From assembly GCA_002255925.1 (NCBI GenBank), contig NKIH01000002.1, positions 372,001-436,000 on the forward strand: 64,000 nucleotides of DNA, written 5' to 3'. The stretch comes from Burkholderiales bacterium PBB6. Lineage in GTDB: Bacteria; Pseudomonadota; Gammaproteobacteria; Burkholderiales; Burkholderiaceae_C. A program made the position numbers and the translations under genes. Positions 41,046 through 43,637 of the stretch are shown in pieces. How positions within the stretch are numbered: position 1 is the stretch's first letter; every line of letters starts with the position of its first letter. Below the pieces are notes generated by a model. It was given only the letters and a program-made list of their open reading frames with translations. It did not search any database and was not told the origin of the DNA.

Positions 41046-41882
41046 ATGAGCAGCAACGAACCCGAAATTTCTGACGACGACAACGAGCTGGAAGTGGTGT
41101 CCACCCCGCGGCCGCGCCGCAAAGGCATCTACATCCTGCCCAACCTGTTCACGTTGGCAGCGTTGTTTGGCGGCTTCTACGCCATCGTCATGGCCATGAA
41201 TGGCCGTTTCGAGCAGGCCGCCATCGGCATCTTTTGCGCCATGGTGCTGGACAGTCTGGACGGCCGCGTGGCCCGCATGACCAACACCCAGAGCGCGTTC
41301 GGCGAGCAGATGGACAGCCTGTCCGACATGGTCAGCTTCGGTGCCGCGCCTGCGCTCATCATCTACGAGTGGGCCTTGAAGGGCCTGGGCAAGGCCGGCT
41401 GGATTGCCGCATTCGTGTACTGCGCCTGTGCTGCCCTGCGGCTGGCGCGCTTCAACACCAACATCGGCATCGTCGACAAGCGCTTCTTCCAGGGCATGCC
41501 CAGCCCGGCCGCCGCGGCGATGCTGGTTGGCTTCATCTGGGTGGCTGATGACGCCGGCTTGAAGGATGTGTACGCGCTGCCGGTCTGGCCGTGGGTGGCT
41601 TTTGCCTTTGCGCTGTATGCCGGCTTGACGATGGTCACCAACGTGCCGTTCTACAGCTTCAAGGACGTGAGCCTCAAGCGCACGGTGCCTTTCGCGGTGA
41701 TCGTGCTGATTGCGCTGGGCATCGCGGTGATCAACCTGCACGTGCCCGGCATGCTGTTCGGCCTGTTCTGCATCTACGGCCTGTCCGGCTACGGCGTGTA
41801 CGTGTGGCGACGCATGAAGGGCCGCCCGGTGAGCGTGATTGCCACGTCGACTGACGAGCCCGACGAGCGCGGTTTGCACTGA
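41046..41882 (+). CDS. pssA: CDP-diacylglycerol-serine O-phosphatidyltransferase
   Basis: Membrane enzyme that makes phosphatidylserine, the precursor of phosphatidylethanolamine, from CDP-diacylglycerol and serine. 278 residues with eight or so hydrophobic helices. The CDP-alcohol phosphotransferase motif is complete: DSLDGRVARMTN...FGEQMDSLSD near residues 75-100, that is D-x2-D-G-x2-A-R-x8-G-x3-D-x3-D. It has an acidic N-terminal extension. It lies between ilvC and leuA. An 11-base tandem repeat covers its stop codon, and the leuA leader starts 33 bases later. Confidence 0.95.
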   Translation: MSSNEPEISDDDNELEVVSTPRPRRKGIYILPNLFTLAALFGGFYAIVMAMNGRFEQAAIGIFCAMVLDSLDGRVARMTNTQSAFGEQMDSLSDMVSFGAAPALIIYEWALKGLGKAGWIAAFVYCACAALRLARFNTNIGIVDKRFFQGMPSPAAAAMLVGFIWVADDAGLKDVYALPVWPWVAFAFALYAGLTMVTNVPFYSFKDVSLKRTVPFAVIVLIALGIAVINLHVPGMLFGLFCIYGLSGYGVYVWRRMKGRPVSVIATSTDEPDERGLH

Positions 41883-41895
41883 AATTTGCACTGAA
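41873..41895. repeat. Tandem 11-bp repeat over the pssA stop
   Basis: TTTGCACTGAA occurs at 41873-41883 and again at 41885-41895, a 12-base period. The first copy encodes the last codons and stop of pssA; the second lies at the -20 to -30 position relative to the leader of leuA. It could be a chance duplication or a regulator site. Confidence 0.6.
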
Positions 41896-41899
41896 CTTG

Positions 41900-41908
41900 T
41901 GCTACATT
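41900..41908 (+). promoter_or_regulatory. Candidate extended -10 promoter of the leuA leader
   Basis: TG-C-TACATT fits an extended -10 element. No good -35 is present at 17 bases (TGAAAT). The predicted start of transcription is close to the leader-peptide ATG at 41915, so the leader could be translated from a leaderless transcript. Confidence 0.4.
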
Positions 41909-41914
41909 AGAAGC

Positions 41915-41980
41915 ATGTTCTCGAACGTCTGCACCACTCTGTCGCTAATTGCGGCCCTAGGTTCCACCTGGGCTGAGTGA
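41915..41980 (+). CDS. leuA leader peptide
   Basis: A 21-codon open frame in the 213-base gap before leuA. It starts MFSNVCTTL and ends with a Trp-Ala-Glu-stop. Leucine codons are at positions 9 (CTG), 11 (CTA) and 15 (CTA); CTA is very rare in this GC-rich sequence, so two in five codons is striking. Segment 41952-41957, at the second CTA, can pair with 42003-42008, which competes with an antiterminator pairing. An intrinsic terminator follows at 42033-42074. The layout is that of a ribosome-mediated attenuator sensing leucyl-tRNA. No strong Shine-Dalgarno is seen. Confidence 0.7.
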
Positions 41981-42041
41981 TCGCACGCACCTGAACATCG
42001 CCGGGCTGGTCCCGAGCAAGTTTCCTCCGATCAACGGCCCG
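41955..42041 (+). promoter_or_regulatory. Alternative leader RNA pairings of leuA
   Basis: Three competing pairings are visible. A pause-type hairpin (41955-41957 with 41970-41972 plus 41959-41962 with 41966-41969) lies over the second CTA codon. Segment 41952-41957 can pair with 42003-42008. Segment 42002-42008 can pair instead with 42035-42041 (7 bp, one G-T pair), which removes the 5' arm of the terminator. Confidence 0.6.
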
Positions 42042-42074
42042 CATTGCGTACAGCAGCGGGCCGTTTTTGTTTTT
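42033..42074 (+). terminator. Attenuator terminator before leuA
   Basis: A 10-bp perfect stem (42033-42042 with 42056-42065) is followed by TTTTTGTTTTT, ending only 21 bases before the leuA ATG. It sits after the leader peptide and cannot serve pssA alone, whose stop is 150 bases upstream. Confidence 0.9.
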
Positions 42075-42095: not shown

Positions 42096-43637
42096 ATGGC
42101 CGACAAGCTGATCATTTTCGACACCACCTTGCGCGACGGCGAACAGTCGCCCGGCGCCTCCATGACGCGCGATGAAAAGCTGCGCATCGCTCGCCAACTG
42201 GAGCGACTGCGCGTGGACGTGATCGAAGCCGGTTTTGCGGCATCGTCCAACGGCGATTTCGAAGCGGTCAAGCTGATTGCCGACAACATCCGTGAATCCA
42301 CGGTTTGCTCGCTGGCCCGTGCCAATGACCGCGACATCGCCCGTGCTGCCGAAGCCCTCAAGGGCGCGGCGCAGGCCCGCATCCACACCTTCATCGCCAC
42401 CAGTGCCCTGCACATGGAGAAGAAGCTGCGCATGACGCCGGACCAGGTGCTGGAGCAGGCCCGCCAATCGGTGCGTTTCGCCCGGAACCTGTGCGGCGAC
42501 ATCGAGTTCTCGCCGGAAGACGGCTACCGCTCGGATGTCGACTTCCTCTGCCGCGTGCTGGAAGCCGTGATCAACGAAGGCGCCACGACCCTGAACATTC
42601 CGGACACGGTGGGCTACGCCATTCCGGAGTTGTATGGCGATTTCATCCGCACCCTGCGTGAGCGCGTGCCGAACTCCGACAAGGCGATCTGGAGCGTGCA
42701 CTGCCACAACGACCTGGGCATGGCGGTTGCCAACTCGCTGGCCGGTGTGAAGATCGGCGGTGCCCGCCAGATCGAATGCACGATCAACGGCCTGGGCGAG
42801 CGTGCTGGCAATTGCGCACTTGAAGAAGTGGTGATGGCCTTGCGCACCCGCCGCGACTATTTCGGTCTGGACGTGGGCATTGATGCCAGCCAGATCGTGC
42901 CGGCTTCGCGCATGGTGAGCCAGACCACCGGTTTCGTGGTGCAGCCTAACAAGGCCGTGGTGGGGGCGAACGCCTTCGCCCACGCGTCCGGCATTCACCA
43001 GGACGGCGTGCTGAAGGCCCGCGACACCTACGAGATCATGCGCGCGGAAGACGTGGGCTGGTCGGCCAACAAGATCGTGCTGGGCAAGCTGTCGGGCCGC
43101 AACGCGTTCAAGCAGCGCTTGCAAGAGCTGGGCGTGTCGCTGGCGTCGGAGGCTGAAGTCAATGCAGCGTTTGCACGCTTCAAGGACCTGGCCGACCGCA
43201 AGAGCGAGATCTTTGACGAAGACATCATCGCGCTGGTGGGTGATGAAAGCGTCTCGGCCGAGCAGGAGCATTTCCGCTTCCTGTCGCTGTCGCAGCGTTC
43301 GGAAACGGGTGAGCGTCCGCATGCCCGGGTCACGTTCTCCGTGGGTGCCAACGAGTTCACCACCGAGAGCGATGGCAACGGTCCGGTGGACGCGAGCCTG
43401 AAGGCGATCGAATCCCAGGTGCAAAGTGGCGCTGAAATGCTGCTGTATTCCGTCAATGCCATCACGTCCGGAAGCACAGAATCGCAGGGCGAGGTGACGG
43501 TTCGGCTGCAGCATGGTGGCCGGGTGGTGAACGGCGTTGGTGCCGACCCTGATATCGTCATCGCGTCAGCCAAGGCTTACCTGTCGGCGCTGAACAAGCT
43601 CCACGGCAACGTTGATCGGGTGGCCGCCCAAGGCTGA
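42096..43637 (+). CDS. leuA: 2-isopropylmalate synthase
   Basis: First committed enzyme of leucine synthesis, condensing acetyl-CoA with 2-ketoisovalerate. 513 residues, the E. coli-type length with a C-terminal LeuA allosteric domain for leucine feedback. The N-terminal [16 protein letters not shown] has the metal- and substrate-binding Arg-Asp; [16 protein letters not shown] near residue 202 carries the metal-ligand histidines; [14 protein letters not shown] follows. The ribosome site is a weak GAAAGAAG. Expression is probably controlled by the leader attenuator directly upstream. It is followed by its own strong terminator; leuBCD are not in the window. Confidence 0.96.

Follow-up and report, generated by a model that had tools for sequence, protein, structure and literature searches.

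The leuA gene of Burkholderiales bacterium PBB6 is probably controlled by a leucine-responsive, ribosome-mediated transcription attenuator that has its own promoter. The element lies within the 64,000-nt stretch of DNA analyzed here (the window). Its leader, CTA codons, promoter box, and terminator are conserved among relatives, and a switch is predicted computationally in most of these. From the sequence we infer the transcription start site, ribosome stalling, termination, and leucine control of leuA. Attenuation of this type, in which a Leu-rich leader is coupled through the ribosome to a stop-or-go hairpin, is a textbook principle.

The regulated gene of this proposal, leuA (42096–43637, + strand), encodes 2-isopropylmalate synthase and matches the NCBIfam families NF002087 (901 bits, cut-off 729) and TIGR00973 (695 bits, cut-off 598.7). 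Its upstream neighbor is pssA (41046–41882, + strand; NCBIfam TIGR00473, 119 bits, cut-off 107). The gap between the two genes is filled by the attenuator element, which is located inside an operon-like gene row, ilvBHC-pssA-leuA. The leader peptide is encoded by an open reading frame of 21 codons plus TGA (41915–41980, + strand), and a Leu-rich leader occurs at the same place in relatives. Its leucine codons are CTG (41939), CTA (41945), and CTA (41957), at codons 9, 11, and 15, just as the initial annotation had read them. That annotation had also described CTA as very rare in neighboring genes, which the count confirms: none of the 150 leucine codons in ilvB, ilvH, ilvC, pssA, and leuA of the window is CTA. 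With three leucines in 21 codons, none adjacent, the window leader is Leu-poor and falls below the Leu-density test used for relatives (at least three or at least four Leu in six codons).

A comparison with relatives, which the initial annotation had proposed as a check, found both the leader frame and the CTA codons conserved. LeuA was searched for in 150 genomes of the window's family, and 129 of these were used. In the other 21, LeuA was unmatched, matched only weakly or by a paralog, or matched in part; a few of these partial matches did contain the 5' end of leuA. We applied a strict pattern consisting of a short open reading frame with at least two Leu in six codons and, 20–75 nt on, a GCCC..GGGC hairpin with a T-run. 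This combination occurs 5' of leuA in 72 of the 129 family genomes, a count in which elements with a terminator outside the strict pattern (e.g., L085, L198, L206, and L258) are scored as absent. With the upstream gene called by motif, the pattern is present in 54 of 63 family genomes having pssA at this position, in 18 of 31 having another or an unclear gene, and in none of 35 having a LeuA-like gene. In these last 35 of the 129 genomes, a LeuA-like C-terminus (recognized by motif) replaces pssA within the 500 nt 5' of leuA. Among 80 titled GTDB loci (Rubrivivax, Ideonella, Hydrogenophaga, Acidovorax, and others), 57 carry the strict pattern, and 16 of the remaining 23 have a LeuA-like gene upstream, again by motif. 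At 10 of these 16 loci, a Leu leader with a promoter box, scored on leader and box alone, is found ~1.8–1.9 kb upstream, about where the LeuA-like gene should begin.

Typical leaders of relatives are MNTFALALLLPPHGRRQ and MSFRPTLLLLLGVPRAR. An open reading frame with at least four Leu in six codons is present in 59 of the 129 family regions, and one with at least three in 79. The codon bias is pronounced: CTA accounts for 102 of 211 leucine codons across 46 GTDB leaders, as against 5 of 1677 in 45 of the leuA genes that follow those leaders. Altogether, 130 distinct elements (72 from the family, 46 from GTDB, and 12 from the genus, all with terminators conforming to the strict pattern) were available for the analyses below.

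An ordinary transcription terminator of pssA together with a chance open reading frame would also account for a hairpin positioned between pssA and leuA, and further GGCCCG hairpins do occur in the genome. However, the leader frame, the CTA bias, the promoter box, and a GGGC motif in the leader tail are conserved jointly, and the element recurs in front of a different LeuA, such that this explanation is hardly credible. The latter arrangement is seen at two loci, L277 (1440–1660; from another family of the order) and L278 (minus strand; from a genome of the window's family that has leuA downstream as well), where leader and terminator lie immediately 5' of a long-form 2-isopropylmalate synthase belonging to a different NCBIfam family; both long-form proteins are cut by the end of the locus. 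A covariance model, with the window included in its build, was also searched against the window's own genome. It gave 61.4 bits at the window site and 28.6 bits for the next match, among 150 of 3618 candidates scored, and the next four matches (L272–L275) resemble ordinary terminators by eye.

The attenuator reading gains a further component in an extended −10 promoter element, TGCTACATT (TG-n-TACATT; 41900–41908, + strand), located 6 nt before the leader ATG. The motif TGnTAnnnT occurs 4–9 nt 5' of the ATG in 113 of the 130 distinct elements, with a spacing of 6 nt in 53 and 7 nt in 50 (103 of 130 together). By eye, 13 of the 17 elements lacking the box have an earlier in-frame ATG within the 25 nt inspected. 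The usual distance between a −10 element and the start site would put the start of transcription at or beside the A of the leader ATG, and this is where transcription in the window is predicted to begin. Positions −14 to −4 were free of any Shine-Dalgarno-like motif in all 130 elements. Because the extended −10 box mostly lies 6–7 nt from the ATG and this motif is missing, the leader of the Burkholderiales leuA attenuator is probably leaderless, that is, translated from the very 5' end of its RNA. A consensus scan of the element's region for promoters and terminators recovered nothing, including no −35 element for the window promoter; the scan demands a −35 element and a loop of 3–8 nt, and the loop of the window terminator is 13 nt. 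Two copies of the sequence TTTGCACTGAA, with starts 12 nt apart (41873–41895), extend across the pssA stop codon just 5' of the predicted promoter.

The terminator is an intrinsic hairpin of 10 bp with a 13-nt loop (42033–42065, + strand; −22.9 kcal/mol). Its arms, AACGGCCCGC (42033–42042) and GCGGGCCGTT (42056–42065), are followed by the T-run TTTGTTTTT (42066–42074), in agreement with the hairpin delineated in the initial annotation. Over 50 aligned rows, none of 500 shuffles matched the terminator in paired cells, doubly changed cells, or covariation score; the count of doubly changed pairs was matched by 294 of 500 shuffles and further pair types by 339 of 500. Versions of the terminator slid along the alignment reached a covariation score of 0.118 at best, compared with 0.218 in the true register. 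Folding of the element's region alone is only modestly beyond shuffles (z −2.1; 6 of 200 shuffles as good), and the case therefore rests on the conserved leader, CTA codons, promoter box, and terminator. The completed terminator wins in every window fold that contains it. As the finished hairpin beats all alternatives in the window, the decision between termination and read-through would be kinetic.

Opposing the terminator is a predicted antiterminator that in relatives would be formed by the tail of the leader itself. In the window, its conserved 5' strand, GGGCTG-AG-TGATCG (41970–41983, + strand), overlaps the end of the leader frame, stop codon included, and has GGGC as its core. Its 3' strand, CGATCA-A-CGGCCC (42028–42040, + strand), was located through folds and the alignment and shares 42033–42040 with the 5' arm of the terminator. 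GGGC is found in the leader tail of 109 of the 130 elements, and elsewhere in the leader in only one (first 24 nt) and one (middle part) of 130. The distance from the last Leu codon to the start of GGGC is 9–10 nt in 55 of these 109. In a hand-picked alignment of 50 of the 130 elements (A2), the four GGGC:GCCC pairs are kept in 49, 48, 50, and 50 of the 50 rows. In the window's clade, the stop codon adds to the helix, with TGATC(G) pairing with (C)GATCA; all 12 of the 12 named antiterminator positions are paired in the window, the mean being 7.7 among 52 elements of the TGA type.

Tested as a rigid structure, the antiterminator had no covariation above shuffles (score, 62/500 in one test and 397/500 in another), because the GGGC:GCCC core hardly varies. 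When flexible duplexes were tested instead, without correction for kinship, the cognate strands were favored (0 of 2000 overall, 2 and 0 of 2000 within clades). We further modeled folding with a ribosome covering 12 nt, counted from the first nucleotide of the A-site codon; in the stalled state, the ribosome occupied the final Leu codon within the densest run. When only RNA downstream of the ribosome was allowed to pair, the mean probability (P) of upstream pairing of the terminator arm across the 130 elements was 0.82 in the stalled state versus 0.29 with the ribosome at the stop codon. A drop exceeding 0.3 was predicted for 110 of 130 elements versus 102 of 390 shuffles; the window is among the 20 elements without such a drop. 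Fewer elements show the drop as the assumed ribosome edge is lengthened (119 of 130 at 9 nt, 73 of 130 at 15 nt). When upstream RNA was allowed to take part, pairing of the arm with the leader tail itself still fell from 0.73 to 0.07, with a drop exceeding 0.3 in 111 of 130 elements. With all partners counted, the arm was paired at 0.82 in the stalled state versus 0.52 at the stop codon, and only 66 of 130 elements passed; upstream RNA could thus interfere with the switch of relatives. The model predicts for relatives that a stalled ribosome frees the leader-tail strand and a ribosome at the stop codon covers it, such that a segment-1 hairpin would not be needed.

The proposed mechanism would proceed as follows. 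From the extended −10 promoter, RNA polymerase would begin the transcript at the leader ATG or next to it, and a ribosome would load directly on this leaderless 5' end. Under a shortage of Leu-tRNA, this ribosome would stall at the last rare CTA codons, with its front edge ending just 5' of the leader-tail GGGC. The freed GGGC strand, which in this clade continues into the stop codon as TGATC(G), would pair with (C)GATCA-A-CGGCCC; this pairing would occupy the 5' arm of the terminator, and leuA would be transcribed. With ample leucine, the ribosome would instead reach the stop codon and cover the antiterminator strand, and the GGCCCG/CGGGCC hairpin would then end transcription.

According to these folding models, the copy in the window stands apart from the rest of its family. 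It contains another segment that could pair with the terminator arm, 42002–42008, which lies in a predicted hairpin, GCCGGGCTGGTCCCGAGC (42000–42017, + strand; −6.7 kcal/mol). The hairpin, which was not seen in the aligned relatives, carries what looks like a copy of the antiterminator strand at a location outside ribosome control; the columns of 42002–42008 are empty in 48–49 of the 50 aligned rows. Considering downstream RNA only, the conserved strand 41970–41983 pairs with the arm at P 0.77–0.89 with the ribosome on codon 11 or 15. With upstream RNA allowed, these values become 0.10–0.67 for codon 11 and 0.01–0.11 for codon 15, and 42002–42008 outcompetes the conserved strand in most folds. 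The predicted pairing of 42002–42008 with the arm has P 0.88 without a ribosome, 0.84–0.88 with the ribosome at the stop codon, and 0.67–0.88 in most stalled states with upstream RNA allowed; the exception (P 0.28) is a stall at codon 11 in a transcript that ends at 42041. Total arm pairing in the window is 0.85 with a stall at codon 11 and 1.00 at the stop codon, which leaves the copy without a switch at equilibrium.

The initial annotation had wired the element from three segments, with 41952–41957 sequestering 42003–42008 and a stalled ribosome freeing 42002–42008 to act as the antiterminator against 42035–42041. The complementarities are indeed present, and the pairing of 42002–42008 with 42035–42041 is among those predicted in most states, at P up to 0.88. 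However, the pairing of 41952–41957 with 42003–42008 has P 0.00–0.01 in all 12 folds, the segments rely on columns that almost all aligned relatives lack, and 42002–42008 pairs with the arm largely regardless of ribosome position, even when the ribosome has reached the stop codon. This wiring is therefore highly improbable. The annotation's leucine-type attenuator before leuA is strongly supported by the conserved leader frame, CTA codons, and terminator. Its wiring is not the conserved one, which is predicted to use the strand 41970–41983, and the annotation missed the extended −10 promoter and the outlier status of the window copy.

Another account of the outlier is that the attenuator is degenerating in this genome, with 42002–42008 having escaped ribosome control and leuA now largely constitutive. 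The full pairing of the arm at the stop codon is consistent with such decay, the associated gain of −8.0 kcal/mol being the strongest of the 130 elements, as are the dominance of 42002–42008 in most folds and the paucity of leucines in the window leader. A similar segment is also absent by eye from 14 loci of the genus. Against this, the local hairpin 42000–42017 forms first, at P 0.95–0.99 when the transcript ends at 42020, and the switch returns when 42000–42017 is held out as this hairpin (−5.9 kcal/mol at codon 11, −9.3 at codon 15, and −1.6 at the stop codon). The conserved strand pairs completely here, exceeding the clade mean, and the terminator and CTA codons are retained. We consider degeneration unlikely on balance, while giving it more weight than the other two alternatives. 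For the attenuator to switch in the window as it would in relatives, the hairpin 42000–42017 would have to form first and hold.

No Rfam 15 family matches at the gathering cut-off, and a search of the element's region up to E 10 returned only a weak suhB match and no leucine family. The relevant Rfam entry is presumably RF00512, the Leu leader (leu operon attenuator, leuL). Like leuL of Salmonella and E. coli, the Burkholderiales element has a Leu leader with rare CUA control codons before leuA and an antiterminator that competes with the terminator. Unlike leuL in its usual layout, it places the conserved antiterminator strand within the leader and stop codon and has no conserved segment-1 hairpin that we could see; it also has no Shine-Dalgarno-like motif. 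For the Salmonella leu leader, changing CUA to CUG is reported to cut sensitivity (PMC1183508).

Leaderless leaders have precedents. In Streptomyces lividans, leaderless Leu leaders are described, leuL1 before leuA and leuL2 before leuS, of which leuL2 has a terminator and leuL1 lacks a typical one (PMC8079986). As described there, leuL1 resembles the window element in being a leaderless Leu leader before leuA, a likeness of description only, and both leaders belong to another phylum. In Sinorhizobium meliloti, the trpL attenuator RNA begins at the leader AUG (PMC7298713, PMC10117765). This attenuator is likewise leaderless, but it responds to tryptophan and belongs to Alphaproteobacteria, and its 5' end and translation are reported from experiment, whereas the Burkholderiales start is predicted from sequence. 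For Campylobacter jejuni and other Epsilonproteobacteria, one study predicts a LeuL in front of leuABCD whose rare Leu codons include CUA (PMC3847290). The predicted leader reading frame with such codons is shared with the window, but the organisms belong to another class, and related leaders there were recognized partly by a ribosome binding site, with no terminator wiring seen described for them (PMC3847290). We found no Burkholderiales leuA attenuator described in the open-access papers searched; the work of Vitreschak and colleagues (2004, FEMS Microbiol Lett 234:357), which lies outside that scope, may predict one. The kind of element is thus already known, and the Burkholderiales version is probably new, being conserved, having its own wiring, and probably being leaderless.

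We also examined the sequences 5' of leuA in other Burkholderiales families. Forty such regions, mostly high scoring and from different families, were hand-picked from 105 genomes with a match; one was too short, leaving 39 (L211–L249). A Leu leader with a −10 box 4–9 nt before its ATG is present in 23 of the 39, compared with 4 of 195 shuffles and none of 39 opposite strands; the same test identifies 73 of 129 regions in the window's family. By our criterion, an intrinsic terminator follows the leader in only 2 of the 23. Nine of the 23 leaders end in LLLRxAR and 15 contain LLLR. The 40 nt after the leader stop are on average 38% C, and their C-over-G excess is 0.20. The scarcity of intrinsic terminators and this C-rich, G-poor stretch would suit Rho-dependent or translational control exerted through the same leucine-sensing ribosome.

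It is possible, if somewhat short of probable, that leuA has long carried the leaderless, Leu-rich upstream reading frame across Burkholderiales and that the output of this frame has changed by lineage, acting on a terminator through a stop-overlapping strand in the window's family and through Rho-dependent or translational control in the other families sampled. If true, such a sensor with different outputs across an order would open the evolution of attenuators to study. The −10 box, so near the leader start in most of the elements, provides a ready test of the coupling of leaderless translation to transcription. Having matched none of the Rfam 15 leader families, the element offers a concrete, testable switch for leucine synthesis in widely distributed bacteria.
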